From positions 1 to 29,165 of IMG/VR virus record IMGVR_UViG_3300020404_000845: a DNA stretch of 29,165 nucleotides. One strand, written 5' to 3'. The notes beneath the pieces are model-generated. The model saw only the letters and a list, made by a program, of their open reading frames with translations, was not told the DNA's origin and made no database searches. Shown here piece after piece: positions 14,001 to 29,165 of the stretch (within the stretch, counting starts at the first letter, position 1; every line of letters starts with the position of its first letter). Source of the stretch: a virus. The translations under genes and the position numbers were made by a program.

Positions 14001-17000
14001 GGAGAATGGAAGATGGAACTACTAATGATCCTATCTACACTCCAAGATACTCTTCTGTACCAAGATACTTTGATGACACTGTAATTACAACAACCGCTGG
14101 AACTCCTGCTTGTGCTGATGTAAAAGCTGCTATTGATACTCTAGCATTCCTTTGGGGAGATGTAATTACCAACAATGCATCAGGAACATACTTAGATGGT
14201 GCATATCTAATCGCTAGAAACGCAGACTTGATTGCTGATCAGGCATTCCAAGATACTCTAACAGCATTTCCTGAGATTGCTTACTCAAATATCAACGAAA
14301 GAAAATGTCCTAGAGATACAAAATTAATTTTAAAAGCTTTAGTAAAAGATTTAGTTCTTGGTGGTAACAGCGGTATTGTTGATGCTGCTGAATCTTACTA
14401 TAGCGGTAGCACTATTACTGGTGTATCAGTATCAGAGATTCCTTATGTTCGTTATGCATATACTAGAGCTAGATTATATGCTAAGTATGCATCTAAGAAC
14501 TGGTCTGCAACTGGTTCTACTGGTGGAACTGGTGGAAATCATCTTTGGGCTGGTGGCACAGCTACCAATGCAGTTCAATCAGGTGGTGACTATGCACATA
14601 CATTTGTGTCAGGAACAGTTACAAGTAACGTTGGTGCCTTACCTAATCCAATCACTGACATATTATATACTGCTTCCACTGGTGAGATGGTTATCTACTC
14701 TGCTGGACATGGGTTAACCACATCAAATACAATTAATATCGCTAATAATGCACTGTCCTTTACCTGCTCAATGGACGGTAATACATCAACTAAAACATAT
14801 CCTAGAGCATCTGATCCTGCATCTGGACAAGCATTAGCAATTACTGCAGCAGGCACAGATACCTTTACCGTAAACGTAGGTGCGTCACCTATCGTAAATC
14901 ATAATGTTACTAATGCAACTTATGATCCATCTACGGGTGATATGGTATTGACTATTGGTAATCACTCATTACCAGTAAATACAAGTATTCAGATTGCTGC
15001 TAACTCACTCACATTTACTTGTGATAAAGATGGTAATGCTACTCAACACACATATCCAAGAGTAACTGACCCTGCATATAATACTGCTATTAATATTGAT
15101 GCAGCAACCTCAACAACTATTACTGTCAATGTTGGTGTAGCACCAACCACTAGTGGTGTTGTATCTCGTTCAATTTCTAACGCAACTTATACTCCTACTA
15201 CTGGTGTATTGAGTCTTTCAATGCCTGTCTCTAGTATTCCTACAGGTTTTGGACAGAATGCTAACTCTAGAGTTGCATTCCAGTTAGGTGGTATCATATT
15301 CAGTTGTGCTTATAGCGGTGGTGGAAATGATGAGAGTCCTAAGATTTTTGATCAGAACGTAGGACAATCGTTTGAAGTTTTAAGTTATAACGAAGCGGTT
15401 GGAGTTGCGACGTTTACAATGAATGTGGGTGTTGCAGGAAGTAACACTGATCCACATACATTTGTAAGTGGTGATGCTCTACTAATCACCGATTATGTTA
15501 CATTATCTTCTGGAATTCCTAAATTTGAAGACTGGAGTATCCTAGTAGATGATGGATCTGGATCTACATGTTCAAACGTAGACTCTTCTATCAATACATC
15601 ATTTGATTTACTTGATGATATTCTAAAATATTCTGTAGATCCTAGCAACGGAACAGAGCCTGGTTCTACAACTAAGACATTTGGAACTCTGCATGATACA
15701 TCTGATATTATTACGTATCCAAGTAGTTTCATCACTGATCAGAACAATGTCAGAATGTCAGTCCGTGCTGACTTTGATGACTTCCCAATCATTGAGGCAT
15801 CTCCATATACACAGAACGCATCTGTTATCTCCTTCTTAGGAGGTGGTGGTGCACTGGTTGATGGATCTAAAGTTAAACAACCTAACTGCCCATTTCCTGG
15901 TCTTGAGTTAGATGGGACTGCATCATTCCCTAATCAGGGTAAGTCAATGGTTGCATCGGCATTTACGATTGTCTCCTTTGGTGGTACAGGTTATAAGATT
16001 ATCAACGATGGTTATACACAGTTAGTTTCTGTGTTCGTTATCTTCTGTGCTGATGGTGTTCTTGCTGAGTCTGGTGGTTATGCATCTATCACTAACTCTG
16101 CTACAAACTTTGGTATCTACGCTCTTCGTGGTATTGGATTTAGAGAAGAATGTTACAGCTTTGATAAAGGAACTATCAGTAACGTATCATCTACTCCAAC
16201 TGGTAGAACAATTCTAACAGTTACTGGATTGGGTAGAGAACCACTAGAGCATTACGTTGTAAAAATTGATGGATTTAGAAACACAAATGAAAATATTGAA
16301 TTCTTCGTTGACTCTGTAGATGGTGTTACTGTAGGTCCTCCTTTCTCTGCACAGTTAACTCTTGACAATGGAACTGGAGATCCTTTAAATCTAACAAATA
16401 CCACCACTGGTAGTGTTGTCTCTGCTGGCACTCTTACTGGTGAGTCAATTAATCTACACAGACCATCTATTGTTAACTCATCATCACATACTTGGGAATT
16501 TGCAGGATCAGGTACAAACTACCTTGCACTACCTGAGAACGGTGGTACTAAGACAGAAGCATTTGAACAGGTTTCAGAACAGTATGGTCGTGTATATGTT
16601 TCTGGTACTGACGAACTAGGAGACTTCAAGGTTGGTACATTTGCTAGAATTGAAAACAGAACTGGTGCTATTACCTTTACTGGTACGGTTACAATTTCTG
16701 AAGTTGAATTCTTGAAATTAAAAGGTGGTGACGTTGTTGTTACTGGTTTTGATGCATCTAACACATTAGGTGGTGCTAACTCCAGTAACTCAAAGCTACC
16801 CACACAGAAAGCAGTTAAGGATTACATCACAAACAATCTAGGTCCTTACATCAACAAACCTTTCTCTACAAACGCTGTTCCAAGAAACCTTGTAGAACTT
16901 ACTGACTCTGGTAAAATTTCTGTTGATCAGATTCCTGCACTTAGACCATTTGAAGTCTTTACAGTTGCTAACCAAACAGAAAGATTAGCACTAGAGGGAG

Positions 17001-20000
17001 CACTTGCTGGTGATATTGCGATTGAACAAGATACTTCTACATCATTCATTCTAAACAATGACTTAGATAGTCAATTCTTAGCATTCGGTGTAGATACAAC
17101 AGTACAATTTACTATTGGTGATATCTTCACTGGTAGTATTACAGGTGGTCGTCTACAAGCAACTGAATACAGACAAGGTGTTGTATTCCAAATTAACATC
17201 ACACAAGGTGGATCTGGATATGCAACTCCACCAACTGTAACTCTAACTGGTGGTACTCCTCAAGCTGGATCTATTGAAGCAAAAGCACAAGCTATTATTG
17301 CTAATGGTGAAGTTGTTGCAATTGACCTTATTGTATTCAACGGATTCAAAGGTGGTAAAGGATATACTGTCGCACCAACTGTTAATATCGCTGCTCCTGC
17401 AGGATCTGGTGTTGCTGCAACTGCTACATCACTTATTGAGAGTAGACTTTATGGAGACATTGTTAATAGAATCAAACTAGAGGATAATGACTTTATTGAA
17501 AGTAGTGATATTCCTGCAGTTGATATTGACATTACTAGAGTTGTTAATACATCATCTTCTAACTCTCTCAACTGGGTATCTCTATCATCCAATCAGATTG
17601 CTGCAAACCAGATTGTATCTGGCATTATTGAGACAGATAGACTTGCATCTGGTGGTGCTGCAAACTCCTTCACATTCTTACGTGGTGACCAAAACTTTGC
17701 ATTAGCAGTTCAGTCAGTTAAAGGTTCTGAGAGAAGATACTTTGCTAAGTTAACTTCCACATGTAACAGTGGTGCTAGTGAGATGGTATTCTCCACACTA
17801 GCTGACGCACTTGTAGGACACGAAGTTAAGAATAACGTATCTGGTATACAACCAAATACAAACATCACTGGTGTTCTTACTACTGGTGGTTCAACCACAG
17901 TTGCATTAAACAACCCAGTCACTGCAACAATTGCTGCTGGAACTGTTATTGAATTTGAACGTGGCGAATCGCCAATGATCTTTGAGTCTACCTTTACTAG
18001 AGGTAACTTTGTTAATGATGTTATTATTTCTAACGGTGGTACTGGATTTACAAACGGACAATACTTTGATGTTGATGTAATTGGTGGTACTGGAACTGAG
18101 GCTAAGATGAACCTCATCATTTCTGGAGGCACTATCACAGAGATTACTGTGACTGATGGTGGTTCTGGTTACGATGCAGACTTCACAATGACAGTTCCAC
18201 CCACAGAAATTGGTGGCGGTTCTGGTCTTGTTTTACTTGTTAAGATTAGTACTGTTAACAAACAGTTTGCAAACGTATCCTTAGACGTTCAAAGAGTTTC
18301 TGATCTTACTATTTCATCTGATCTATTCGGAACTATTGGTGTTGCAAGATTTAAGAAATCTCAATTCCTTGTAGGACAATCAGGTAATGGTTCTGTTGAA
18401 CTAGACGTTGGTGCAGACTCAGGTCTTGATGCTGACCTACTAGATGGACAGCAAGGTGTTTACTATACCAATGCTACTAACTTATTCTCAGGAACAGTTC
18501 CAGAAGACAGATTAAGTGGTTCATATCCTATTGATGTTTCTGGTTCTTCTGGTAATACACTTAGACTTTCAAGTGGTACTAACAACCCAACTTCAAACCC
18601 ATCACCCGATAACTTTGCTGGAGGTATTGTTGCTAACACTATTAACAATACAGCAAACGGTTTGGTTGATGGCGGAAGCAAGAATTTGGTTCTTACACTT
18701 AGAGCTGGTGGAACTAGTTTTGATGCATCGTTTGGTGGTGTAAGACAACTTGCATTTACAGATAACGATAACATGTATCTTCGTGGATCTGGAACTGGTG
18801 TTACAACCTTTGGATCTTGGGCGAAGATTTGGTCATCATTAAATGATGGTATTGGATCTGAATTAGACGCTGACAGACTTGATAACAGACAAGGTATTTG
18901 GTATCAGAATGCTCTAAACATTAACTTCGGAACTTTATCTGATAATAGATTACCGAACTTCATGAGTTCTAAAATTATCCAAGATAATTTAACCATCAAA
19001 GCATTTAATGGAGATCCTAAGTTTAGAATTTATGTTTCTGGTTTAATTTTAAATACAACACCATTTACACCTGGTTCTAACGTCAACCTATATGACGCAA
19101 ACGGACAAGGTACAGGTACTATCGCTATTGATAATATCATTGTTAATAACGATCCAGATAACACTAATGACTTTACAATCATCATTGGTAGATTAACTAC
19201 TGGTAACTTTGTAGGTGCAAAAACAATCGGTTCTGCATCAGACAGAAAAGAATTCCAAGATTTCACTATTGAAGATGGAAACACTATTCAAGTCGCTAAG
19301 TTAGAAAGTGATGGTGGTACTGCAAACTTAAGACTAGGTAGAAAGGATAGCATTGCATCCTCACCTGGCGTTTACTTCAATTCATCTATCTCTCCAGCTA
19401 ACTACAACGTAGGTTTAGTTGCAACAGGTGGTAATGCTACTGATGGTTCTGGTACTCTAAACTGTTTAGTTGCAAACGCTGATGGTTTTAACGTTAACGG
19501 TAACGTTGTTTGGAACGCAGGTAACATTGACTTCCAATCATCAAACGTTGCAGACACTGGTGTTAAGAGAGATTCCAATGGTAACTTCGCTGCTGGAACA
19601 ATCACTGCAAACCTAACTGGTTCTGCTTCACTAAACGTTCTTAAGGCTGGCGATAGCATGTCTGGATCGTTGAACATTACTGGTGTTGGATCTACCCTAA
19701 CAGTTTCTGGTGATGCTAACTTTAGCAGTAAGGCAACCGTTACAGATGACTTTGCAGTTGACACCGATACACTATTCGTTGATGTGTCTGCAGACAGAGT
19801 TGGTATTAATGCTGGTTCATCTCCTGCATACAACTTAGATGTTCGTGGTGATCTTGGTCTTGGCATCTATTCATCAACAAATGCTGCTGGTGCTCAGATT
19901 ACATTTAGTGATCTTTCTGGTGGTTCATTTGCACAGAAAGGTTACTTCCAATACTTCCATGCTGATGGAACTGTTTCTGGAACCAGCTTCGCCAACTACT

Positions 20001-20779
20001 TCATTATGGATAGTTCGGAATCTAGCTTGCTATTCAAGGTTGGTTCTGCTGCTTCACCTGGTACTTTATCTGTCACCAACAGAATTGGTATTCAAACAGA
20101 TACTCCATCATATCCATTAGATGTTGCAGGTTCTGGTCGTGTCCGTGGCACACTCTATATTGATACTGCTAATGATAACTCAGGTGCTCCAATTGAATTC
20201 TTTGGTGCTGCAAACTACAGAAACTTTAGAATTGGTAACCAGTTAATTGCTAATCACATCTTCTCCATCCAAGCTTCTAATAGCAATGGTAATAGTGACT
20301 GGAACACAACTCCAGCATTACAAATTAAGGGAGATACAAATGCTGTTGCAATTAATACAACACAGCATTCTGGAACTGATCCATCAACAAGCACTGTTAG
20401 AAATTACAAACTTAATGTTCAAGGTGATGTTAACTTCAATGGTCAACTCTTCCAGAACAATGCAGAGTTTGTTACCTCTAGATGGACTGAGGCTTCTAAC
20501 GGATCTGACATTTACAGACTATCTAAAGTTGGTATCAATAAGACAGATCCTCAATACACATTGGATGTTGATGGAGAAGCAAACATTAGAGGTATCACCC
20601 GTGTCAACGGAGACGCACAATACCTAGATACTTACGGTATTGTTAAGAGAAACAGAAATAGTATTTCTCAGAACCTCACAATCGGTGGTGCGGACAACGC
20701 TGCATCATACGGTCCTGTCTCTATTGCGAGCGGATACACAGTCACCATCTCATCTGGCGGTGTCTGGAATATACTATAA
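11078..20779 (+). CDS. giant modular tail-fibre-like virion protein (3233 aa)
   Basis: Largest gene of the window. N-terminal part: MSFNINSDKEFVRGSKPRL, then a GSGY module (about residues 62-138). KIATTEYVLN (from residue 278) is a motif seen before phage fibre domains. From about 295, GRVYVSAQIGDDLNDG and DCSVVGDNLRLVIIRP resemble the start of a pectate-lyase-like beta-helix. Similar helix sequence resumes near 1565-1735 (ASVISFLGGGGALVDGSKV, ALRGIGFREECYSF). The intervening insert holds two related helical units (911-975, 1077-1142) and three beta repeats (about 1190-1455). Further on are TQKAVKDYI (near 1909), more GSGY modules, DADLLDG and DADRLDN units (near 2451 and 2598), AGDSMSGSLNITG, three Y-x-LDV-x-G repeats (near 2919, 3012 and 3160) and a beta C-terminus ending GGVWNIL. 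No S74-type autoprocessing domain is evident. It is probably a host-contacting fibre or a large tail-decorating protein. Confidence 0.85.
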   Translation: MSFNINSDKEFVRGSKPRLIGDQELTIRSGTGSAEKEIIRAQLDANTALPRVGINRTGERVNEINVVTGGSGYTTEPSVTIDPPPTAGGIQALASAFIFNGQVVNIAINNPGSGYTSAPTVTITGGNGGGATAESVLDTVDFELDINGAVRTSTSIISDTARILNLDIDNFITPDTNFRAPNLKTFMNNTGTAWGANVIVQKNAYRYFGANVYQAINSGQTGPEAPTHLDGVALNGEVQFKHIGFRANDTNSFAYNQTGEAGIFPRSITPLLGDRSDKIATTEYVLNLATNDVGGRVYVSAQIGDDLNDGRSAVNPVRTIKRAAQLAWATPGVKETLIVSGGDYVEDNPISLPPDCSVVGDNLRLVIIRPANPKKHIFKFGDKNYVIGVTYRDQVDSIGDAVATWDFAMVFDDKQRIIIDNEVNGDFGVNFPIGHQIFGPDQFRVNFQENTGLSALVTGLEVVGINTGARAKLTGVRFNSTSGVDAYLTGSVDVELKSGSFLEGERFNYIVSGAQGSSVAITITATAGKNIFRTTTDPDTLIPPGTYIYLNDTDNSSFTQGFYEVKAINDDNSPTYWDVEVVPILNSPSWDSTATEAIDIFDANITVNSFDTTSLKSIRAEGEVVSFDDDITTSVPIQRLDFSLQGDPSIATGGFQNAQFGNAEDLGGIVFYTNELVGRSNIHDFKEGQEILIEGLPTSSPDLSVLMGKQRIYKVLEDADGRSRRFVIPKKLPAITTANFDPGTVATAKSFSKSITLSLLNSPNKFPLSSPVERRFQDACVFLRNNREFIADEVVGQINVEFKTDHFRVYDVSGTDFKIYLGTTPSDNNYVSGGTVTFGGTAYNITGFTYDNLVTGEATISTGTAIPGLAEDNIVKLADILISCAAGNKIYPAYSSPTSGNNTGDDGDEQCRQDVIHFVNALVRDLEFGSNHNIIDAAKKYIVNGKIAFIEDEIVQNIRAVEYARRLCVLAMRNWRMEDGTTNDPIYTPRYSSVPRYFDDTVITTTAGTPACADVKAAIDTLAFLWGDVITNNASGTYLDGAYLIARNADLIADQAFQDTLTAFPEIAYSNINERKCPRDTKLILKALVKDLVLGGNSGIVDAAESYYSGSTITGVSVSEIPYVRYAYTRARLYAKYASKNWSATGSTGGTGGNHLWAGGTATNAVQSGGDYAHTFVSGTVTSNVGALPNPITDILYTASTGEMVIYSAGHGLTTSNTINIANNALSFTCSMDGNTSTKTYPRASDPASGQALAITAAGTDTFTVNVGASPIVNHNVTNATYDPSTGDMVLTIGNHSLPVNTSIQIAANSLTFTCDKDGNATQHTYPRVTDPAYNTAINIDAATSTTITVNVGVAPTTSGVVSRSISNATYTPTTGVLSLSMPVSSIPTGFGQNANSRVAFQLGGIIFSCAYSGGGNDESPKIFDQNVGQSFEVLSYNEAVGVATFTMNVGVAGSNTDPHTFVSGDALLITDYVTLSSGIPKFEDWSILVDDGSGSTCSNVDSSINTSFDLLDDILKYSVDPSNGTEPGSTTKTFGTLHDTSDIITYPSSFITDQNNVRMSVRADFDDFPIIEASPYTQNASVISFLGGGGALVDGSKVKQPNCPFPGLELDGTASFPNQGKSMVASAFTIVSFGGTGYKIINDGYTQLVSVFVIFCADGVLAESGGYASITNSATNFGIYALRGIGFREECYSFDKGTISNVSSTPTGRTILTVTGLGREPLEHYVVKIDGFRNTNENIEFFVDSVDGVTVGPPFSAQLTLDNGTGDPLNLTNTTTGSVVSAGTLTGESINLHRPSIVNSSSHTWEFAGSGTNYLALPENGGTKTEAFEQVSEQYGRVYVSGTDELGDFKVGTFARIENRTGAITFTGTVTISEVEFLKLKGGDVVVTGFDASNTLGGANSSNSKLPTQKAVKDYITNNLGPYINKPFSTNAVPRNLVELTDSGKISVDQIPALRPFEVFTVANQTERLALEGALAGDIAIEQDTSTSFILNNDLDSQFLAFGVDTTVQFTIGDIFTGSITGGRLQATEYRQGVVFQINITQGGSGYATPPTVTLTGGTPQAGSIEAKAQAIIANGEVVAIDLIVFNGFKGGKGYTVAPTVNIAAPAGSGVAATATSLIESRLYGDIVNRIKLEDNDFIESSDIPAVDIDITRVVNTSSSNSLNWVSLSSNQIAANQIVSGIIETDRLASGGAANSFTFLRGDQNFALAVQSVKGSERRYFAKLTSTCNSGASEMVFSTLADALVGHEVKNNVSGIQPNTNITGVLTTGGSTTVALNNPVTATIAAGTVIEFERGESPMIFESTFTRGNFVNDVIISNGGTGFTNGQYFDVDVIGGTGTEAKMNLIISGGTITEITVTDGGSGYDADFTMTVPPTEIGGGSGLVLLVKISTVNKQFANVSLDVQRVSDLTISSDLFGTIGVARFKKSQFLVGQSGNGSVELDVGADSGLDADLLDGQQGVYYTNATNLFSGTVPEDRLSGSYPIDVSGSSGNTLRLSSGTNNPTSNPSPDNFAGGIVANTINNTANGLVDGGSKNLVLTLRAGGTSFDASFGGVRQLAFTDNDNMYLRGSGTGVTTFGSWAKIWSSLNDGIGSELDADRLDNRQGIWYQNALNINFGTLSDNRLPNFMSSKIIQDNLTIKAFNGDPKFRIYVSGLILNTTPFTPGSNVNLYDANGQGTGTIAIDNIIVNNDPDNTNDFTIIIGRLTTGNFVGAKTIGSASDRKEFQDFTIEDGNTIQVAKLESDGGTANLRLGRKDSIASSPGVYFNSSISPANYNVGLVATGGNATDGSGTLNCLVANADGFNVNGNVVWNAGNIDFQSSNVADTGVKRDSNGNFAAGTITANLTGSASLNVLKAGDSMSGSLNITGVGSTLTVSGDANFSSKATVTDDFAVDTDTLFVDVSADRVGINAGSSPAYNLDVRGDLGLGIYSSTNAAGAQITFSDLSGGSFAQKGYFQYFHADGTVSGTSFANYFIMDSSESSLLFKVGSAASPGTLSVTNRIGIQTDTPSYPLDVAGSGRVRGTLYIDTANDNSGAPIEFFGAANYRNFRIGNQLIANHIFSIQASNSNGNSDWNTTPALQIKGDTNAVAINTTQHSGTDPSTSTVRNYKLNVQGDVNFNGQLFQNNAEFVTSRWTEASNGSDIYRLSKVGINKTDPQYTLDVDGEANIRGITRVNGDAQYLDTYGIVKRNRNSISQNLTIGGADNAASYGPVSIASGYTVTISSGGVWNIL
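11262..11490 (+). repeat. GSGY modules near N-terminus of giant fibre
   Basis: Encodes GGSGYTTEPSVTIDPPP, then FNGQVVNIAINNPGSGY and TSAPTVTITGGNGGGATA. The GSGYTxxPxVTI pattern recurs at 17188-17445 in this gene and in the two upstream structural genes. Confidence 0.75.
13806..14003 (+). repeat. helical unit, copy 1, in giant fibre
   Basis: Encodes CRQDVIHFVNALVRDLEFGS, IIDAAKKY and AVEYARRLCVLAMRNW, an alpha-helical island in an otherwise beta protein. It aligns with 14306-14508. Confidence 0.65.
14306..14508 (+). repeat. helical unit, copy 2, in giant fibre
   Basis: Encodes CPRDTKLILKALVKDLVLGG, IVDAAESY and YTRARLYAKYASKNW, in the same order and spacing as 13806-14003. The shared core is C-x-x-D-x4-A/V-LV-x-DL-x-x-G, then I-x-DAA-x-x-Y, then a C-terminal helix ending N-W. 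Confidence 0.65.
14650..15440 (+). repeat. three tandem beta repeats in giant fibre
   Basis: Three units begin ITDILYTASTGEMVIYS, VTNATYDPSTGDMVLTIG and ISNATYTPTTGVLSLSM. The first two continue with LSFTCSMDGN or LTFTCDKDGN, then YPRASDP or YPRVTDP, and end FTVNVG or ITVNVG. The third is diverged (IIFSCAYSGGGN...FTMNVG). This YPR-x-(S/T)DP unit is known from cyanophage fibre-like proteins. Confidence 0.75.
14841..14856 (+). repeat. 16-bp direct repeat, internal copy
   Basis: Identical to 11061-11076. Here it codes for TAAGT inside LAITAAGTDTFTVNVG, at the end of the first of the three beta repeats. Confidence 0.8.
17188..17445 (+). repeat. GSGY modules, mid giant fibre
   Basis: Encodes QGGSGYATPPTVTLTGG followed by GGKGYTVAPTVNIAAPAGSG, separated by an AIIANGEVVAIDL strand pair. 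It has the same architecture as 11262-11490. Confidence 0.75.
18010..18255 (+). repeat. GGTGF/GGSGY modules, mid giant fibre
   Basis: Encodes NGGTGFTNGQYFDVDVIGGTG, then GTITEITVTDGGSGYDADF and GGGSGLVLLV. This is the variant with G-x-Y-x-x-V closer to that of the 1415-aa protein upstream than to the TxxPxVTI variant. Confidence 0.65.
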
Positions 20780-21007: not shown

Positions 21008-21045
21008 ATGTCTACATTAAATGCTGGAACCCTTAACATTACAGG
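21008..21045 (+). repeat. 38-bp direct repeat at the 5' end of paralog 1
   Basis: The first 38 coding bases (MSTLNAGTLNIT plus two bases) are identical to 22059-22096. Similarity continues beyond (LPSY..SQRD, AAAGGGAT etc.) with scattered differences. Confidence 0.9.
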
Positions 21046-22027
21046 AACACTGCAGTTACCATCTTACAATAATTCTCAAAGGGATGCTCTGACACCTACA
21101 ATTGGGATGATGATCTATAACAATGAAGATCCTAGTGTGCAAGTATGGGATGGAGAAGCTTGGCAAGTTTCTGTAGGTACAGGTGGTATTGCAGAACCTG
21201 GTCAAGCATATTATAGTTCACCTGGTTCTTATACCTTTGACGTTCCATCAGGAGTAACACAAATTTCTGCCGTATGCGTTGGCGGTGGCGGAGGTGGAGG
21301 AGGTAACAATGGTACCTCAGGACCTGGTTCATCTGGTGGTGGAGGCGGTGGTCTCGCATATGGAACATTTTCTGTGACATCAGGAGAATCATTGACTGTT
21401 ACTGTTGGTGGAGGTGGTTCTGGTGGTTCACCTAGTTCAACAGGAGCTGCTGCATCTGGTGGAGATTCTAAGATTTCAAGAGGAGGAACCGATTTACTAC
21501 GTGGTGGCGGTGGTAACGGTGGAGTAAGTAATACTAGTTCACAAATTGATGGTGGTACAGGTGGAGGTTCCGCTGGTACTGGAAGATCTGGTGGTGGTGT
21601 AGGTGGACAAGGAGGTCGTTCTCAGTGGAACGGTGCTGGTGCTGGTGGCGGTGGAGCAGGTGGATATTCAGGAAATGGTGGTATTGGTGCAGGTACACAA
21701 GGTGGCGGAGGTAACGGCTCTGGCGGTGGTGGTGCTGGTGGTAGAAATATTAACAGTCAACCTCCTGGCACTGAAGGTTCTGGTGGAGGAACTGGAGTCT
21801 ATGGACAGGGTAGTAGTGGATCATTTGGTAGCTCTGGTAGCGTAACTGGTTCTCCTGACTCTAGTACATCTCCTCCCCAGTCTACCGTTGGTGGTATACC
21901 TGGTGGAGGTGGTGGAGGTGTTGAAGATGATACATTCTCCAATGGATGTACTGGCGGTAGAGGTGCTGTTAGAATTATCTGGGGAGAAGGAAGACAGTAT
22001 CCTACTAGTGGTGTATCCGATGTTTAA
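21008..22027 (+). CDS. glycine-rich tail fibre/adhesin protein, paralog 1
   Basis: A 339-aa protein with two parts. Residues 1-60 (MSTLNAGTLNITGTLQLPSY, then GMMIYNNEDPSVQVWDGEAW) form a short fibre-attachment-like module. From about residue 70 comes a domain starting YTFDVPSGVTQISAVCVGGG, then some 230 residues dominated by Gly and Ser with GGGG runs, ending GRGAVRIIWGEG. Domains of this glycine-rich kind occur in distal fibre proteins and receptor-binding adhesins of many phages, and T-even gp38-type adhesins are likewise built of glycine-rich stretches. A role in receptor contact is therefore plausible but inferred. It is paralogous to the next gene, sharing the first 38 bases exactly. No metal or catalytic motif is visible. 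Confidence 0.8.
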   Translation: MSTLNAGTLNITGTLQLPSYNNSQRDALTPTIGMMIYNNEDPSVQVWDGEAWQVSVGTGGIAEPGQAYYSSPGSYTFDVPSGVTQISAVCVGGGGGGGGNNGTSGPGSSGGGGGGLAYGTFSVTSGESLTVTVGGGGSGGSPSSTGAAASGGDSKISRGGTDLLRGGGGNGGVSNTSSQIDGGTGGGSAGTGRSGGGVGGQGGRSQWNGAGAGGGGAGGYSGNGGIGAGTQGGGGNGSGGGGAGGRNINSQPPGTEGSGGGTGVYGQGSSGSFGSSGSVTGSPDSSTSPPQSTVGGIPGGGGGGVEDDTFSNGCTGGRGAVRIIWGEGRQYPTSGVSDV

Positions 22028-22033
22028 TAAATA
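22026..22033 (+). promoter_or_regulatory. putative late promoter AATAAATA
   Basis: AATAAATA differs from the T4 late element only at the first base and overlaps the TAA stop of the preceding gene, the same arrangement as at 20775-20782. The next ATG is 25 bases downstream; GGAGGA at 22038-22043 lies 15 bases before it, farther than usual for a ribosome binding site. Confidence 0.6.
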
Positions 22034-22058
22034 CAGTGGAGGAAAGTTCTGATCAGTT

Positions 22059-22096
22059 ATGTCTACATTAAATGCTGGAACCCTTAACATTACAGG
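22059..22096 (+). repeat. 38-bp direct repeat at the 5' end of paralog 2
   Basis: Identical to 21008-21045, starting at the ATG. Confidence 0.9.
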
Positions 22097-23111
22097 GACA
22101 TTAAATTTACCATCTTACAGTGATTCTCAAAGGGATTCATTGTCAGCAACTGCTGGCATGATGATTTACAACTCTGAGCAGGGTGGTATTGAAGTATATG
22201 ACGGTACAGAATGGAAAGCTGCTGTTGGTGCTGGTGGCGGATTTATCGTAGCTTCTGGAGGTGCAATCCAGAATGACGGTGACTTCCGTATTCATACTTT
22301 TAACAGTGCATCTTCTTTTGTTGTTACAGAAGTTGGAGACTCTACTCAACCATTTGGTAATACAGTTGACTACCTTATCGTCGCAGGTGGCGGTGGTGGA
22401 GGAGGATTTGCCTCAGGAGATTTTAATAACTTTGGATCTGGCGGTGGCGGTGGTGCTGGTGGCGTCTTAAGAACTGAAGGTTACAATTATGCTGTATCCG
22501 TTGGTTCTATGTCAGTCTCTATTGGTGGTGGAGGAACTGGAGGAACTGGTAACTCTGCTGGATCACCTGGTGGAAATAGTTCACTAGGAACACAAACCGC
22601 TATTGGTGGCGGTGGAGGAGGTCAACAGGATAAACCTGGTCAATCAGGTGGTTCTGGTGGCGGTAATGGTACTGACGGAGCAGGTGAAGGACCTGGCGGA
22701 CCTGGCACATCAGGTCAAGGATTTCCTGGTGGATATGGTGCTAACCAACAGAATGGTACTTCTGGTGGTGGTGGCGGTGCTAGTGAATCAGGACAGAATG
22801 GTTACAATAGACCTAACTCAGGACCTGCAAGAGGTGGTAACGGATTTACATCTGCTATCTCTGGTTCTCCTGTAACATATGGAGGAGGCGGTGGTGGTGC
22901 AAACTATCCTGGCGGTCCTCATAACCCCAATGGTGGATCTGGTGGTGGTGGAGTAGGTGCTCTATCTCCTACTGCTAACGGTAATCCTGGCACAGGTGGT
23001 CTTGGAGGAGGTGGCGGTGGTGCTGCTGACCAAGATCCTCGTAACTATCCAGAACCTAAAGGTGGTAATGGTGGTGGCGGTATTGTAATTGTCAAGTATA
23101 AATTCCAATAA
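22059..23111 (+). CDS. glycine-rich tail fibre/adhesin protein, paralog 2
   Basis: A 350-aa paralog of the preceding protein with the same N-terminal module (MSTLNAGTLNITGTLNLPSY, GMMIYNSEQGGIEVYDGTEW). Then comes a beta region with GGAIQNDGDFRIHTFNS and DYLIVAGGGGGGG, a long Gly/Ser/Asn/Pro region, and the C-terminus GGIVIVKYKFQ. DYLIVAGGGGGG...GGGGAGG followed by a C-terminal IVIVKY is the classic form of the glycine-rich phage fibre domain. The two paralogs agree well up to the attachment module, then differ in the glycine-rich part, as expected if two alternative tips share one base. Whether both are mounted in the virion is unknown. It has its own late-promoter-like motif upstream. Confidence 0.8.
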   Translation: MSTLNAGTLNITGTLNLPSYSDSQRDSLSATAGMMIYNSEQGGIEVYDGTEWKAAVGAGGGFIVASGGAIQNDGDFRIHTFNSASSFVVTEVGDSTQPFGNTVDYLIVAGGGGGGGFASGDFNNFGSGGGGGAGGVLRTEGYNYAVSVGSMSVSIGGGGTGGTGNSAGSPGGNSSLGTQTAIGGGGGGQQDKPGQSGGSGGGNGTDGAGEGPGGPGTSGQGFPGGYGANQQNGTSGGGGGASESGQNGYNRPNSGPARGGNGFTSAISGSPVTYGGGGGGANYPGGPHNPNGGSGGGGVGALSPTANGNPGTGGLGGGGGGAADQDPRNYPEPKGGNGGGGIVIVKYKFQ

Positions 23112-23115
23112 AATC

Positions 23116-23706
23116 ATGGCACATTTCGCAAAAATAGATAGAGTAGGAACTGTCGTAGATGTCATTATAGTTGACGATGACATTCTTAAGAATGAAGATG
23201 GTGAAGAAATAGAACAGAGAGGAGTTAAGTTTCTTTCTGATCTGTTTGGCGGAGCACCTCAATGGGATTGGAAACAAACATCATATAATGCAGTTAAAGG
23301 TCGTCATAGATTTCAACCTGCACCAGCTAGTTACGGTGATGCTGTAGAACCAATCTTTGATAGTAAACCTTGCTTAAGAAAAAATTATGCTGCTGTTGGT
23401 GGTAAATATGATTACGTAAGAGATGCTTTTATTCCACCAAGACATAATGCAACTCATGTTATCTTAGATGAAAAGGCATGCCACTGGGAATGTCCATATC
23501 AATCTAATCAGATTAATGATAATGGAGGTGTGCCACTTCCATATAAAGATGAGTCAGATTACACTGTAAACGCACAAAGAAATCCTAAGGGTTGGGTTTG
23601 GGATGAAGGAAAGAAAACATATAAACAAGTGCTAGCTTTTGAGCAAAAGAATGTACAATATCAGTTTGATCCTCAACAACATATGTGGGTTCAACCAAAT
23701 TATTAA
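23116..23706 (+). CDS. MAHFAK-type conserved phage protein (196 aa)
   Basis: Starts MAHFAKIDRVGTVVDVIIVD at ATG 23116. A TTG at 23089 would add nine residues but lies within the previous gene and breaks the MAHFAK family start. Short proteins beginning MAHFAKL and containing W-K-Q-T-S-Y-N, RKNYA-x-(I/V)G and RDAFIPP are frequent next to fibre genes in T4-like cyanophages and pelagiphages; no function is established to my knowledge. This one keeps WKQTSYNAVKGRHRF, LRKNYAAVGGKYDY and DAFIPPR, followed by several W-containing segments (ACHWECP, GWVWDEGKKTY, HMWVQPNY). The repeated W/Y segments look like short beta hairpins. It opens the operon of oxygenase-type genes. There is no signal peptide or membrane segment. 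Confidence 0.75.
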   Translation: MAHFAKIDRVGTVVDVIIVDDDILKNEDGEEIEQRGVKFLSDLFGGAPQWDWKQTSYNAVKGRHRFQPAPASYGDAVEPIFDSKPCLRKNYAAVGGKYDYVRDAFIPPRHNATHVILDEKACHWECPYQSNQINDNGGVPLPYKDESDYTVNAQRNPKGWVWDEGKKTYKQVLAFEQKNVQYQFDPQQHMWVQPNY

Positions 23707-23714
23707 ACAACAAT

Positions 23715-24278
23715 ATGATTTCATTATGGTTTCCAAAAGCGATTTATTTTCAACCAAATATTTTAAATAATAAATTAGGCATCTATGAGAAACAAATCAA
23801 AGGTGCCTTTTCTAGTATTGGAACTTGTCGCGAAAGATTAAAGAATGTAGACTCTACACATAGGTTAGAGAAAAACATTTTTGATGTAGCAGAACTAGAT
23901 GGTCTGGTAGAAGAATTTTATAAACATGCAAATTTGTATCTAGATGCTCTAGGTTACAAAAGAAGAAAGTCATTACATATTCAAAATTGTTGGGCAAACA
24001 TTAGTTATCCTGGCGATTATCTTTTTCCACATAACCATGGCGGTTCTGTGATAGCAGGAGTTTATTATGTAAAATGTGGTATCCATGAAAAAATAAAATT
24101 TTTCAATACACCCACAATGCTTCCTGATCCAGATGAGTGGAATGATAAAAATCATCAACATTGTGAATACTCTTGTTTACCTGGCTCGCTTTTATTGTTT
24201 ACAAGTGATATAATGCATGGTACAGAGAAACAAGACTGTAAGGAAAAGATTGCTATCTCTTTTAATATGTCATTATGA
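23715..24278 (+). CDS. putative 2OG-Fe(II) oxygenase, TIGR02466-like
   Basis: A 187-aa protein starting MISLWFPKAIYFQPNI. The upstream GTG at 23685 lies inside the previous gene, so ATG 23715 is preferred. The core NCWANISYPGDYLFPHNHGG, then SVIAGVYYVKC, and PGSLLLFTSDIMHGT...KIAISFN matches the small oxygenase family often annotated TIGR02466 in marine phages. Candidate metal ligands are His106/His108 and His168. The usual HxD acidic ligand is not evident (HNH), and Lys178 stands where an Arg normally binds 2-oxoglutarate. It may therefore be a diverged or inactive double-stranded beta-helix enzyme, or use another ligand set. The substrate is unknown. The stop overlaps the next ATG (ATGA). 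Confidence 0.75.
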   Translation: MISLWFPKAIYFQPNILNNKLGIYEKQIKGAFSSIGTCRERLKNVDSTHRLEKNIFDVAELDGLVEEFYKHANLYLDALGYKRRKSLHIQNCWANISYPGDYLFPHNHGGSVIAGVYYVKCGIHEKIKFFNTPTMLPDPDEWNDKNHQHCEYSCLPGSLLLFTSDIMHGTEKQDCKEKIAISFNMSL

Positions 24279-24892
24279 TTGAGTTCAATGTTCCACAACA
24301 ATCACCAAATTTTATTGCTGGATGGTATATAAGTGAGGATGTCTGTGATGGTTTAATTTCTTTCTTTGAGGAATCAGATGATAAAAAACCTGGCGCTATT
24401 GGTCAAGGTGTAAATGAAGATTTTAAAATATCAACTGATGTTACTGTCATTCCTAGAAATCCTGATAACAGAATTCAGGATTATCTTAGAGAGTTAACTG
24501 ATGTGTGTAAAGAATATACTCTCAAATATCCATGGTGCTCTACTAACCAAGATGTATGGGGATTGAATACTAATTTTAATATTCAAAAATATAATCCTAG
24601 TGAGGGTTTTTTTGGATGGCATACAGAGAAATCTACTATGTCTGATCTAGTTGGAACTAGGCATCTTGTGTTTATGACATACCTAAACACAGTAACCAAT
24701 GGTGGAGAAACTGAGTGGTTTCACCAACAGATAAAAATACAACCAAGGAAAGGATTGACAGTCATGTGGCCAGTGGATTGGACTCATGTTCATCGTGGTG
24801 TGCCTTCCAAGACCGAGACTAAATATATTACGACGGGATGGTATACTTATAAGATACCTAACTTTGATTACACTCAATATAATGGAGCCTGA
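24275..24892 (+). CDS. putative 2OG-Fe(II) oxygenase, prolyl-4-hydroxylase-like
   Basis: A 205-aa protein of the double-stranded beta-helix dioxygenase type. The core starts FNIQKYNPSEGFFGWHTEKS, giving an HxE pair (His116, Glu118). It continues RHLVFMTYLNTVTNGGETEW, the strand and GGET turn typical of prolyl-4-hydroxylase-like proteins, then TVMWPVDWTHVHRGVPS with the distal His171 or His173. Lys183 (KYITTGW) is in the place of the 2OG-binding Lys of prolyl hydroxylases. HxE in place of HxD is a conservative variation. Substrate is unknown; peptidyl-proline or other protein side chains are possible from family relation. It starts in an ATGA overlap with the preceding stop and its own stop overlaps the next start (TGATG). 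Confidence 0.8.
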   Translation: MIEFNVPQQSPNFIAGWYISEDVCDGLISFFEESDDKKPGAIGQGVNEDFKISTDVTVIPRNPDNRIQDYLRELTDVCKEYTLKYPWCSTNQDVWGLNTNFNIQKYNPSEGFFGWHTEKSTMSDLVGTRHLVFMTYLNTVTNGGETEWFHQQIKIQPRKGLTVMWPVDWTHVHRGVPSKTETKYITTGWYTYKIPNFDYTQYNGA

Positions 24893-25503
24893 TGAATCTT
24901 TATAATAATTATTGGTGGTTTAAAAATGCATTTTCTCCAGAACAATGCGACCGTATTATTAAAATGGGTATGCAGGAGAATTTTGAATTAGGTGATATTA
25001 ATAGAACTAATAGAGAAACAGTAGAAGTAGAGGATACAAAAGATTTATTTAAAACAAGGAACTCTCACGTCTCATGGTTAGACGAACCTTGGATTTATAA
25101 TATTCTAAAAAAATATATTGATGCTGCTAATTCATCTGCAGGATGGAATTATGATTGGGACTGGACAGAGATGTTGCAGTTTACAAAATATAAAGTCGGT
25201 CAGTTTTATGATTGGCATCCAGATCAACATCACTATGTTTATCCAGAAGATGATACTAATGTAAACATGAGAGGAAAGTATAGAAAACTTTCTACAACAC
25301 TACTATTAAATGATGCAAGTGAGTTCAAAGGAGGTGAGCTTGAATTTCATTACAACATGAAAGAAACCAAGATTGCTGAGGAGTTATCTTCTAGAGGAAC
25401 CTTAATTGTATTTCCTGCATTTGTATATCACAGAGTTCGTGAAGTTACAGAGGGAACTAGATATTCTCTTGTTAGTTGGAGTATTGGAGCACCATTCAGA
25501 TGA
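24892..25503 (+). CDS. putative 2OG-Fe(II) oxygenase, PKHD-type-like
   Basis: A 203-aa protein with a complete motif set: YKVGQFYDWHPDQH (His109, Asp111), RKLSTTLLLND, FKGGELEF, TLIVFPAFVYHRVREVTEG (His180) and TRYSLVSWSIG (Arg190). The order HxD...GGEL...FP...H-x-V...R-x-S matches PKHD-type hydroxylases related to prolyl 4-hydroxylases, at about the usual length of 200-230 residues. Of the array members it looks most like an active enzyme. The substrate cannot be predicted. It starts one base into the previous stop, with GGAG at 24884-24887 only four bases before the ATG, and ends in an ATGA overlap. Confidence 0.88.
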   Translation: MNLYNNYWWFKNAFSPEQCDRIIKMGMQENFELGDINRTNRETVEVEDTKDLFKTRNSHVSWLDEPWIYNILKKYIDAANSSAGWNYDWDWTEMLQFTKYKVGQFYDWHPDQHHYVYPEDDTNVNMRGKYRKLSTTLLLNDASEFKGGELEFHYNMKETKIAEELSSRGTLIVFPAFVYHRVREVTEGTRYSLVSWSIGAPFR

Positions 25504-26021
25504 TCCATATTTCACACATTAATCTCAGTGATGATTTTGTAGATAGGATAATTGATTTTTTCAAAGACAATATCCTAAAAACATATACATGGGATGAGAC
25601 TAGAGTTCTCAGTATGGATAAAGGTGGGATTGGTAAATACAATCTACCAGAGACATACTATGATATCCTTAATCTTGCAAAGGATGTAAAGAGTAAGGTA
25701 ACTAACAAAGAGTTTTCTGTTCTACAGAATGTTGAAATTGTAAAGTATCCATGCGGTGCTTGTAAAGTATTTCATAAAGATAGAACAAGGAAAACCACAA
25801 CAGGAGCTTCAATAACTTATCTGAATGACAACTACATTGGTGGTCATACTGTTATTGAAGGAGTAGATGTTCAACCTCTTTCTGGAAGAACAGTTTACTT
25901 TGATGGAATGGAATTTCGTCACGGTGTATCAAATGTAATCAAGAGAGATAGATATACTCTCTCTATGTGGTATGGACTTGATACCACAATGCCACTAAAC
26001 AAAGACTTCTTAGAAATTTAA
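25500..26021 (+). CDS. putative 2OG-Fe(II) oxygenase (173 aa)
   Basis: Starts MIHISHINLSDDFVDRIIDF at ATG 25500, in an ATGA overlap with the previous stop and with GGAG at 25486-25489. A TTG at 25476 would extend it by eight residues into the previous gene and is not favoured. The core has KVFHKDRTRK (His92, Asp94), GASITYLNDNYIGGHTVIEG, SGRTVYFDGMEFRHGVSNV (His141) and RDRYTLSMWYG (Arg151). This is the full HxD...H...R set of a minimal double-stranded beta-helix dioxygenase, a little shorter than its neighbours. The FDGMEFRHGVSNV segment corresponds to the F-P-x-x-x-x-H-G-V stretch of prolyl-hydroxylase-like phage proteins. Substrate unknown. One base separates it from the next gene. Confidence 0.82.
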   Translation: MIHISHINLSDDFVDRIIDFFKDNILKTYTWDETRVLSMDKGGIGKYNLPETYYDILNLAKDVKSKVTNKEFSVLQNVEIVKYPCGACKVFHKDRTRKTTTGASITYLNDNYIGGHTVIEGVDVQPLSGRTVYFDGMEFRHGVSNVIKRDRYTLSMWYGLDTTMPLNKDFLEI

Positions 26022-26022
26022 A

Positions 26023-26505
26023 ATGGAAATTATTGACAATTACTTAGCACCTGATTTGTTTAAAGTTGTTCAAGAAACAATTCTATTATCTCAGAACACA
26101 CCATGGTTTTTAAATACTGATGTATCTGGTCATGGAGTAGAAAAACATCCATATTTTACTCACCTTATGCATCATGATCACAGAGCAAACAGTAACCACT
26201 TTGATCAATGTATTGTTCCTATTCTATTCATGTTTGGAGCAAAAGCATTAATGCGTGTAAAAGTAAATTTATATCCTAGAACAGATACTCTATATCATTA
26301 CCATGATCATTATGATTATGATTTTGAACATAAAGCTGCTATTCTCTATCTCAATACAAATGATGGATATACAATCTTTGAGGATGGAACAAAGGTTGAG
26401 AGTATTGAAAATCGTCTGTTAAAATTTGATGCTAGAAAAATGCATCATAGTACGACATGCACAGATCAACAGTATAGAGCTAACATCAATTTTAATTACT
26501 TCTAA
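26023..26505 (+). CDS. putative 2OG-Fe(II) oxygenase, small His-rich type (160 aa)
   Basis: A 160-aa protein with VNLYPRTDTLYHYHDHYDYD (His92, His94, Asp95, His96, Asp98), AILYLNTNDGYTIFEDGTKV, RLLKFDARKMHHSTTCTD (His141/His142) and YRANINFNY (Arg152). The NLYPRT...H..H.D...LYLNTNDGYT.FEDGT...H.S..CTD...R.NIN pattern is one I associate with short oxygenase-like proteins of marine T4-like phages. A plausible iron triad is HxD (His96/Asp98) plus His141 or His142; the crowded His region makes the exact ligands uncertain. The enzyme is near the lower size limit for this fold. Substrate unknown. Its TAA stop overlaps the next ATG by one base. Confidence 0.78.
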   Translation: MEIIDNYLAPDLFKVVQETILLSQNTPWFLNTDVSGHGVEKHPYFTHLMHHDHRANSNHFDQCIVPILFMFGAKALMRVKVNLYPRTDTLYHYHDHYDYDFEHKAAILYLNTNDGYTIFEDGTKVESIENRLLKFDARKMHHSTTCTDQQYRANINFNYF

Positions 26506-26867
26506 TGGCAAGTCAACTATTGAATGTTAGGAACAGTTATAAGTTTCCTGAATACATTGATGTAAAAAACATACCTGATACCAGAAGTATGGAGTATGGT
26601 ATCAGAAAAGTATTACATGAAGAGTTTGGTATTGAAGGAGAGATTGACTGTATAGAAAAAATATCTGATCAAAAGGTATCATCAAATGGAACATTTACAT
26701 CTGTTGTTTGTTTAGATACTGGAGATCTACATCTGTATGCTCTAGATGTTGAAAACAAAGAGGTTGGTTTTGAATTAATTCCAAAGGTAATGTATTTTTC
26801 AGATGCTATTGTATACCGATGGAAAAATATAAAGGAGATTGATAATGTCGGGTTTGACTTTTACTAA
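26505..26867 (+). CDS. unrecognised protein within the oxygenase operon (120 aa)
   Basis: A 120-aa protein starting MASQLLNVRNSYKFPEYIDV. It lacks any HxD/H/R arrangement, signal peptide or membrane segment. Visible sections are a charged helix (MEYGIRKVLHEEFGI), a central beta stretch (TFTSVVCLDTGDLHLYALDV) and a hydrophobic/aromatic C-terminus (IPKVMYFSDAIVYRW). I do not recognise a family. It starts by a one-base overlap with the upstream oxygenase stop, and its end overlaps the next gene by 23 bases, so it is co-translated with the oxygenases. It could be an accessory or substrate-recruiting subunit, but that rests on position alone. Confidence 0.7.
   Translation: MASQLLNVRNSYKFPEYIDVKNIPDTRSMEYGIRKVLHEEFGIEGEIDCIEKISDQKVSSNGTFTSVVCLDTGDLHLYALDVENKEVGFELIPKVMYFSDAIVYRWKNIKEIDNVGFDFY
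26831..26837 (+). promoter_or_regulatory. ribosome binding site deciding the start at 26845
   Basis: AAAGGAG lies seven bases before ATG 26845, inside the end of the upstream gene. It favours this ATG over the TTG at 26839. Confidence 0.75.
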
Positions 26868-27450
26868 GATATCTGATTTACCAGTCGCACATATTCAAAA
26901 TTTTTACTCATCAGATGAGTTAAAAAAGATAATGAATGAATTAGAATATCTGTATAGCATTGACAGATATAAAGGTGCAGAAGAGGATGGAGGACCAGGC
27001 ACTGCATATGAAGATGGTGTAGCACTTAAGGTAGGAAAAGGTCTCCATCTAAATGTTGTGTATGATGACGTAAAGCAATCTGATATACTAAGTATCAATA
27101 GAAAAATATTCAATGAAAGTTTGATGGAATCTCTAATGGGTAATCATCCATTCTTTCGTTATCTGTGGAGATCAAATAGAGATGAAACTAAAATTCATTA
27201 CTTTGAGAATGGAGATCACTACAGACCACATACAGATGATTGTGTAATCACTGCTATTACTTGGTTCTATAAGGAACCAAAGATGTTTACTGGTGGTGAT
27301 TTTATCATTGAAAAAGCGATCAAAATTCCATGTCTAAATAATTCTACGGTAATATTTCCTTCAATTTTATACCATGAGGTGACATCTGTCGTAATGGAAA
27401 ATCTTTCTGGATTTGGAAGATATTCTATGAGTCAATTTTTGTATATGTAA
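26845..27450 (+). CDS. putative 2OG-Fe(II) oxygenase, prolyl-hydroxylase-like (201 aa)
   Basis: Starts MSGLTFTKISDLPVAHIQNF at ATG 26845, chosen for its AAAGGAG site. The core carries KIHYFENGDHYRPHTDD (His129, Asp131), then ITWFYKEPKMFTGGDFIIE (a TGG-D turn equivalent to GGEL/GGET in related enzymes), TVIFPSILYHEVTSV (His177) and GRYSMSQFLY (Arg192). This is the complete HxD...H...R set with the family's spacing, close to PKHD/prolyl-hydroxylase-like enzymes of about 200 residues. It is likely active. The substrate is unknown. The N-terminus contains a helix beginning SSDELKKIMNELEYLY, as in other members. Two bases separate it from the next gene. Confidence 0.86.
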   Translation: MSGLTFTKISDLPVAHIQNFYSSDELKKIMNELEYLYSIDRYKGAEEDGGPGTAYEDGVALKVGKGLHLNVVYDDVKQSDILSINRKIFNESLMESLMGNHPFFRYLWRSNRDETKIHYFENGDHYRPHTDDCVITAITWFYKEPKMFTGGDFIIEKAIKIPCLNNSTVIFPSILYHEVTSVVMENLSGFGRYSMSQFLYM

Positions 27451-27452
27451 TT

Positions 27453-28100
27453 ATGAGTCAAGTAATTTTATTTGAAAACGACGAACCGAAAACTATTTTT
27501 GCTCCAACATACAGATGGCATATGTATGAAGGAGAGGTGCAGGTAAGAGATATTAGAGATACTATTCTCAAAAGAGAGAATGAGATTATTAATACTCATG
27601 ATTATGAGAGTGATTGGAATACAGGTCTAGGTAAAGATAGTATGACATCTAGATCAAGTAGCTATAATTTATTGGATTGGGAAGAGGCAGATCATATTAG
27701 AGATATTATTAGAAACTCTCATGATAATCTTGTTACCACACTAGATGCTAACATGTGGGAGGACAAGATATATGTTCAGTGTTGGGCAAACGTATTGAGG
27801 AAGGGACAAAAAATTAAACCACATCAACATTGGAATAGTCAGTACACATATCTTGGTGGACATATTTGTTTAGATGATTATAATACTCATACTCACTATG
27901 TAAATCCATACACTAAAAAAACATTTAAAAGTAAAAACGAAAAAGGAAAGGTGCATCTGTTTCCGAACTGGTTAGAGCATTACACTGATCCATATGAGGG
28001 TGATGATGTCCGTGTTACAATTGCATTTGATATCATTACACAAATTGTATACGACGAAGATATTTTTGATAATAAGAAGGATCATTGGGTACAGTTGTGA
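27453..28100 (+). CDS. putative 2OG-Fe(II) oxygenase-like protein, WAN/HxH type (215 aa)
   Basis: A 215-aa protein whose second half reads YVQCWANVLRKGQKIKPHQH (His124, His126), then YTYLGGHICLDD, KVHLFPNWLEHYTDPYEG (His176) and VRVTIAFDI (Arg187). The LFPNWLEH...R-x-T-I-A-F-D end is the signature of TIGR02466-like small oxygenases, and the CWAN...H-x-H stretch links it to the gene at 23715 and to the partial gene at 28791. As in 23715, HxH occupies the place of the expected HxD, so its metal ligation and activity are uncertain. The N-terminal half is helical and charged. The last four bases form a GTGA overlap with the Fe-S gene. Confidence 0.75.
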   Translation: MSQVILFENDEPKTIFAPTYRWHMYEGEVQVRDIRDTILKRENEIINTHDYESDWNTGLGKDSMTSRSSSYNLLDWEEADHIRDIIRNSHDNLVTTLDANMWEDKIYVQCWANVLRKGQKIKPHQHWNSQYTYLGGHICLDDYNTHTHYVNPYTKKTFKSKNEKGKVHLFPNWLEHYTDPYEGDDVRVTIAFDIITQIVYDEDIFDNKKDHWVQL

Positions 28101-28798
28101 ACACCAATCAAATTGTTGAAGCTATCAACTGGGTAACTAGGGATACTCCAATTATGTTTGATGTTACTGTTACTACACCACCTGATGATTTGATACGTCA
28201 AAGAGCACAAGACAATTACAATAGAGGAAAACCAGATTCATTAGATAAAGATTTTTATTTGTCTGATACTTGTAAATCTATTATTGTTTGGAATGTTTTT
28301 AGTGACGTTGCCTATGATTATTATTACAAAAATAATTTTCTACCTAAAATTATTACATACTTAAATATGAGATATGAATATAATTTTGGTTATGATGGTT
28401 ACAATCTCAATCGTAAACAGTTTGCTATTAGATCTGGTGCTGCAACACTAGCAAAAACATCTTTAGCATTTCATAAAAAATTTGGGATGAATTATAAAAT
28501 TGATCTCATCTTTACAAATGCAGAGTTTGAAGATGCTGTTGTTGTAGAAGGACAACCACATTATGAGAACTGTGAAGGATGTGACGCTCCATGTGAGAGA
28601 TTGTGTCCTGTTGGTTGTACAATGAATTTTGATTTAGTTAACTGGGAAAAATGTTCAAACTTTGTGGACACTCCAGAAGCTTTTAAAAATTTAGATACCA
28701 TATGTAGAATCTGTCAGGAAAAATGTCCTTACTCAGAAGATCTGAGAAAAGATATTCTAGCTATGAATATAAATTATGGAGGTAGGATAAATGGGTGA
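28097..28798 (+). CDS. QueG-like iron-sulfur (8-Cys) protein
   Basis: A 233-aa protein from GTG 28097 in a GTGA overlap with the upstream stop; the TTG at 28085 lies deeper inside that gene. The C-terminal third has eight cysteines in the arrangement of a two-[4Fe-4S] domain: C159-x2-C162-x3-C166-x3-C170-P, a lone C186, and C203-x2-C206-x3-C210-P, with an extra C174. Upstream, YDGYNLNRKQFAIRSGAATL and AKTSLAFHKKFG match the layout of epoxyqueuosine reductase QueG (D...R-x-x-x-x-R-A-G-x-G-x-x-G-K-N-x-L). QueG is a cobalamin-dependent enzyme of the last step of queuosine synthesis, related to reductive dehalogenases. This protein is shorter than QueG (about 310-390 residues) and lacks its C-terminal repeats. 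The first motif has three residues between its second and third Cys, where ferredoxins have two. Reductase, electron carrier or other role cannot be decided. It overlaps the next gene by eight bases. Confidence 0.7.
   Translation: MNTNQIVEAINWVTRDTPIMFDVTVTTPPDDLIRQRAQDNYNRGKPDSLDKDFYLSDTCKSIIVWNVFSDVAYDYYYKNNFLPKIITYLNMRYEYNFGYDGYNLNRKQFAIRSGAATLAKTSLAFHKKFGMNYKIDLIFTNAEFEDAVVVEGQPHYENCEGCDAPCERLCPVGCTMNFDLVNWEKCSNFVDTPEAFKNLDTICRICQEKCPYSEDLRKDILAMNINYGGRING
28778..28782 (+). promoter_or_regulatory. ribosome binding site for the gene at 28791
   Basis: GGAGG lies eight bases before ATG 28791, within the 3' end of the Fe-S gene. It is one of the strongest Shine-Dalgarno sequences in the window and supports a real gene start despite the eight-base overlap. 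Confidence 0.8.
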
Positions 28799-29165
28799 AT
28801 GGCGTTCATGGAAATCTAATTTACCAAACAATCCGTTTGCTCCAAAATTTTCTGTTGACATGTGGTTTGATCTTATTAATCTACAGTTGATTGATAATTT
28901 ATTAGACGTAGTTAAACAGAATGAGGACTTATATAAAAACCATCAATGGGAACACTACAATATTTTCCAATGGGAAGATAGATGTATCCGTGATCTCAAA
29001 GAGATTACCAAAGCTTCTTACCACGATTTTTGTAAAAAAATTGGATTTAAAACAGAAGAAGTTTGGATAAGAGGTTGGGTATACCCACAGAAACAAGGAA
29101 TGGTATTGAAAAGACATTCACATGCTATGCATGAAAATGCGTATATTAGTGGTAATATTTGTCTT
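28791..29165 (+). CDS. putative 2OG-Fe(II) oxygenase-like protein, WAN/HxH type, 3'-partial
   Basis: Open from ATG 28791 to the right edge, 125 residues, beginning MGEWRSWKSNLPNNPFAPKF. Near the edge it reads VWIRGWVYPQKQGMVLKRHS (His109) followed by HAMHENAYISGNICL. This matches the YVQCWANVLRKGQKIKPHQH...YTYLGGHICLDD stretch of the protein at 27453 position by position, so it is very probably another member of the same HxH-type oxygenase-like group. The distal His and the Arg would lie beyond the window. The N-terminal half is helical (LINLQLIDNLLDVVKQNEDL) and charged. The start is supported by GGAGG at 28778-28782. Confidence 0.7.
   Translation, partial: MGEWRSWKSNLPNNPFAPKFSVDMWFDLINLQLIDNLLDVVKQNEDLYKNHQWEHYNIFQWEDRCIRDLKEITKASYHDFCKKIGFKTEEVWIRGWVYPQKQGMVLKRHSHAMHENAYISGNICL

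Follow-up and report, generated by a model that had tools for sequence, protein, structure and literature searches.

A compact relative of the epoxyqueuosine reductase QueG in the 2OG-oxygenase cassette of T4-like marine cyanophages, a candidate cobamide-dependent reductase

The window, that is, the whole stretch of 29,165 bases analysed here, is a virus record belonging to a marine cyanophage of the T4-like group. Genes for structural proteins and tail fibres extend to about 20.8 kb, among them a single tail-fibre ORF of 3,233 aa at 11078-20779 (phrog_5342), and are followed by two glycine-rich tail-fibre-like genes; the remainder of the window, to its end, is a tight run of overlapping genes. 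Within this run, on the plus strand like the other cassette genes described below, lies an open reading frame at 28097-28798 (GTG start, TGA stop), the product of which was described in a first-pass annotation as a QueG-like Fe-S protein embedded among oxygenases. Translation bears out the length of 233 aa given there, and both of the overlaps reported are seen: a GTGA overlap with the preceding 2OG-Fe(II) oxygenase gene (27453-28100; PF13759), and one of 8 bp with the next oxygenase-like gene (28791-29165), of which only the start is present, the window ending inside it, and whose S-RSM4 homologue, SRSM4_133, matches PF13759. Further 2OG-Fe(II) oxygenase genes are found at 23685-24278 (PF13759), and at 24275-24892, 24892-25503 and 26839-27450 (all PF13640). 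Interspersed with these are two oxygenase-like genes, at 25476-26021 (phrog_2297; a weak prolyl 3-hydroxylase match, with homologues named 'leprecan') and 26023-26505 (phrog_274; a weak 2OG match), and a gene of 120 aa with no assigned function (26505-26867). The public names of phrog_2297 and phrog_274 are 'DNA endonuclease' and 'DNA endonuclease V', respectively; the weak matches, together with an HxD...H pattern, make their products resemble 2OG oxygenases. Most neighbours of the Fe-S gene match 2OG-Fe(II) oxygenase families, and the oxygenase setting described in the first-pass annotation is borne out.

The Fe-S gene is not peculiar to this virus. Its product is matched over its full length by phrog_33749 (E 6e-141), a family annotated as of unknown function, and homologues of 60-100% identity are encoded by cyanophages S-RSM4 (SRSM4_134, 86%) and S-SM1 (SSM1_058, 64%), in both of which they are annotated as hypothetical, and by about 45 marine viral contigs. 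Among these homologues dN/dS is 0.06-0.32, indicative of purifying selection. The ORF is a genuine gene, under constraint in marine cyanophages of the T4-like group. A survey of the homologues and their neighbours, which the first-pass annotation had proposed, places the gene at one fixed position in the overlapping cassette. In all contigs that are long enough the order is oxygenases, a short gene without assigned function (undetected in a few contigs), two oxygenases, the Fe-S gene, one more oxygenase and then a gene that carries the annotation 'ferrochelatase'; one contig (L025) has no recognisable neighbour upstream of the Fe-S gene within the stretch examined. A second search, started from the upstream oxygenase instead, recovered no cassette lacking the Fe-S gene, and in the two additional contigs that contain this oxygenase the sequence enters the Fe-S gene directly before the contig ends. 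Searches of a viral fold library with the Fe-S protein returned one unnamed 103-residue fragment (61% identity) and nothing else, and PADLOC gave no match to a defence system.

Two further features of the surrounding region merit description. The downstream genes annotated 'ferrochelatase' (SRSM4_132, L033:13273-13908, and its homologues) have no Pfam or NCBIfam ferrochelatase match and carry an oxygenase-like HKDW...H pattern. In addition, glycine-rich (PF21722 / PF12810) tail-fibre-like genes lie on both sides of the cassette, at 21008-23111 in the window and, in S-RSM4, as SRSM4_131 (L033:13942-15021).

The eight cysteines in a 4+1+3 arrangement that had drawn attention to the protein are C159, C162, C166, C170 / C186 / C203, C206, C210, which with C59 and C174 make ten invariant cysteines in total, and the D...R-SGA...AK-x-S-L segment noted upstream of them corresponds to D100...R112-S113-G114-A115...A119-K120-x-S122-L123. 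Among proteins of solved structure, the best single-sequence match is the Streptococcus thermophilus QueG (5d6s; phmmer, E 9e-6), and no RdhA is found among the sequence matches. Profile-profile comparison substantiates the proposed likeness, a phage-only profile aligning with a bacteria-only QueG profile over 173 columns (hhalign, E 1e-12). The likeness is not limited to the ferredoxin cysteines, as the refuting condition named in the first-pass annotation would have had it: the N-terminal 152 residues (28097-28552), which contain no cluster cysteine, match bacterial QueG with E 2.8e-4 and a score of 33.7 (150 column shuffles used as a control gave a mean of 14.5, sd 3.1 and a maximum of 28.2), and both proposed proton donors are present. 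The cysteine-free comparison and the shuffles rule out chance or generic ferredoxin likeness. The protein also departs from a generic two-cluster ferredoxin or NuoI, with a 4+1+3 layout in place of two CxxCxxCxxxCP motifs and a NuoI model score of 21.2 bits against a cut-off of 113.

Nor is this a plain QueG, a possibility ruled out by the curated models and by altered motifs. The best E-value with TIGR00276, the NCBIfam model for QueG, is 3.4e-4, with the phage proteins below the cut-off of 200 bits, and PF08331 does not match the phage proteins whereas it does match control QueGs. In a phylogenetic tree the phage proteins form a single clade on a very long branch, separate from all QueGs. 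Twelve cyanobacterial QueGs form one clade without phage proteins, which rejects capture of a host queG, a rejection that covers recent capture only. Collectively, these comparisons establish, at the level of sequence, that the phage family is a stripped-down, diverged relative of QueG, homologous to the QueG core.

Of 80 diverse bacterial QueG loci collected, 40 were aligned with 20 phage proteins, and D74, Y75, D100, G130, C159, C162, C166, C170, P171, C186, C203, C206, C210 and P211 are invariant in all 60 sequences. In S. thermophilus QueG, proton donation has been proposed for Tyr-101 and Asp-130, and the cluster ligands are residues 184, 187, 190 and 243 for the distant cluster and 194, 210, 236 and 239 for the cluster next to B12 (PMC4646009). 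Phage D74-Y75 corresponds to D100-Y101 of the DYH motif, D100 to Asp-130, and the eight cysteines to the ligands of both clusters; it is this correspondence and the invariance across phage and bacterial rows that delimit a putative di-[4Fe-4S] module at 28571-28726. The phage proteins share with QueG (TIGR00276; PDB 5d6s, 5t8y, 5d0b) the N-terminal domain, the 4+1+3 module, the D-Y pair, the catalytic Asp and the eight ligand cysteines. In contrast, the His of DYH is variable, the third position among the 20 phage proteins being Y (6, including the window), H (8), T (4) or F (2), and the Pro three residues past the catalytic Asp is lost. Elsewhere GxxGK has become AxxAK, GCD has become ICR and CPxN has become CPxS, while in the pocket segment ISYLTIE the SYLTIE portion is replaced by NFxD with a deletion. 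The phage proteins have one residue more than QueG between the second and third cysteines and a shorter loop from the strand after C59 to D74-Y75. Moreover, they stop about 23 residues past the last ligand cysteine and lack the C-terminal HEAT-repeat domain, which in QueG provides a base-stacking active-site Trp and is the proposed tRNA binder (PMC4646009).

Structures were predicted from two alignments. With phage rows only, AlphaFold2 produced no clear fold (pLDDT 46; QueG Z 3.7). Addition of QueG rows to the alignment raised the pLDDT to 75.8, with a pTM of 0.79, and the resulting model, the alignment for which contained QueG, matched QueG with Z 13.9 (200 residues, 3.5 A; Foldseek E 7e-8), RdhA with 11.2, NpRdhA with 9.8 and MMACHC with 8.2. 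QueG, RdhA, NpRdhA and MMACHC are all cobamide binders. Since QueG sequences were in the alignment, the model supports the fold without amounting to independent proof, and the nitroreductase-like fold of the N-terminal part, a candidate cobamide-binding domain that includes D74-Y75 and D100, stands as a prediction. The second-best fold match, to RdhA/PceA (4ur2, 5m8x) and NpRdhA (4ras), comes with a redox chain that is laid out alike; the phage protein is nevertheless less like RdhA than like QueG and is far shorter, and where the Sulfurospirillum multivorans RdhA has Asn-272 (PMC4646009) all phage proteins have an Asp, D100. MMACHC/CblC, a B12-processing protein, has a distantly similar fold and no iron-sulphur module. 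There is no cobalamin-binding sequence motif for class III enzymes (PMC4646009).

The reading that we favour, at a probability of a little under one half (about 0.45), is that the phage protein is a compact reductase of a class III-like type, relying on a cobamide plus [4Fe-4S] clusters, whose substrate has changed and is probably also handled by the neighbouring oxygenases. The N-terminal nitroreductase-like domain would hold a base-off cobamide obtained from the host, and the C-terminal di-[4Fe-4S] module would take in electrons, for example from ferredoxin, and pass them on to the cobalt. Y75 and D100, positioned above the corrin, would donate protons to a substrate that is probably a product or intermediate of the surrounding 2OG-oxygenase cassette. 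Beyond the homology to the QueG core, the conserved catalytic and ligand residues, the purifying selection and the fixed gene order, which the data show, cobamide and cluster binding, the electron source, the reductive chemistry and the sharing of a substrate are all features that we infer. The absence of the QueG C-terminal domain coupled with the changed pocket segment makes it probable that the substrate is other than epoxyqueuosine-tRNA, and it is gene order alone that points to a substrate in common with the oxygenases. In arriving at this estimate, the QueG profile match, the conserved proton donors and ligands, the model built with QueG rows, the synteny, the purifying selection, and the presence of cobS and petF in S-RSM4 were counted in its favour; the lack of any class III cobalamin motif, the poor phage-only model, the shorter loop before D74 and a bacterial relative without the catalytic residues (described below) were counted against it.

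An extension of this reductase reading, speculative and rather unlikely, is that virus-specific cobamide-dependent reductases act, by epoxide removal for instance, on the product of the adjacent 2OG oxygenases. The glycine-rich tail-fibre-like proteins flanking the cassette are candidate substrates, and virion modification would then combine oxidative and B12-reductive steps. For the cobamide/[4Fe-4S] class, to our knowledge, no more than two reaction types have been established. Further members are expected and are hard to recognise from sequence (PMC4646009), and no homologue of QueA, QueG or QueH was reported among the viruses covered by a phage survey of 7-deazaguanine genes (PMC6884629). 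A viral member of the class that is conserved, keeps the putative catalytic residues and has an altered pocket would be a candidate for a third reaction type, and one soluble protein would open the purpose of the unexplained cyanophage oxygenase cassettes to testing.

QueG is the closest family, and the D-Y pair and the Asp are conserved, as would be expected of a minimal phage epoxyqueuosine reductase that, in the infected cell, carries out the last step of queuosine formation on GUN-anticodon tRNAs of either the phage or its host. The tRNA complement is suggestive of such a link in S-RSM4, which encodes tRNA-Tyr(GUA), tRNA-Asn(GUU) and tRNA-Asp(GUC), and offers a weak one in S-SM1, which of these has only tRNA-Asn(GUU), but two large contigs with the Fe-S gene, possibly fragments, carry no tRNA. 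The missing C-terminal domain argues against this role, as do the altered ISYLTIE, GCD and CPxN motifs and the variable His of DYH, loss of which impairs the Bacillus subtilis QueG. Furthermore, small (1.6-2.5 Mb) cyanobacterial genomes, which we take from their size and gene order to be Prochlorococcus and marine Synechococcus, already have a QueG of their own (315-325 aa), and these short QueGs of the presumed hosts retain part of the C-terminal segment. Given that the phage protein falls short of the curated models for QueG and departs from it in several invariant motifs, action on tRNA is a minor rival and quite improbable. An even smaller likelihood attaches to corrinoid handling of the MMACHC/CblC kind, in which the protein would bind, dealkylate or reduce the host cobamide. 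MMACHC is among the fold matches and cobS belongs to the core genes of cyanophages (PMC3037559), but the MMACHC match is weaker than those to QueG and RdhA, the ferredoxin module has no counterpart in MMACHC, and there is no B12 gene within the cassette. Since S-RSM4 carries nrdA and nrdB, a phage B12-dependent reductase does not readily suggest itself as the client of such an activity.

The remaining rival, a B12-free iron-sulphur electron carrier on a leftover QueG-like scaffold, which might for example return the iron of the adjacent 2OG oxygenases to its reduced state, is unlikely but is, with the minimal epoxyqueuosine reductase, one of the two main alternatives, and its standing depends in part on relatives outside viruses. 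No relative emerged from an initial scan of bacteria for which the phage alignment was used. When Pseudomonadota were searched with the phage profile, an uncharacterised Fe-S family of about 220 aa was recovered (L226, L227, L228, L239-L250), one member of which, used as a query, matched 37 of 249 genomes. This family shares with the phage proteins a CxxCxAPCxxxCP motif and an F/L-x-DT sequence after the lone cysteine, and its ferredoxin part matches that of the phage proteins (hhalign E 3e-8 over 102 columns) and also QueG (E 3.5e-9). It keeps the cysteines, the last three of them differently spaced, but lacks the D-Y pair and D100, and no significant match was found between the N-terminal halves of the two families. 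Compact QueG relatives thus occur outside viruses and some are without the catalytic residues, so a scaffold of this kind does not have to serve a reductase. The invariance of all eight cluster cysteines and the location of the gene amid those for Fe(II) oxygenases also speak for electron transfer. On the other hand, Y75 and D100, for which simple electron transfer has no use, are nevertheless invariant in every phage sequence, the N-terminal domain is retained whole, and 2OG oxygenases generally do not need a dedicated electron donor. Among 386 cyanobacterial genomes scanned there were weak matches, mainly to QueG. One genome (G341), which also has a full QueG match, contains a 146-aa QueG/RdhA-like ORF (L160:1486-1926) that is possibly a fragment.
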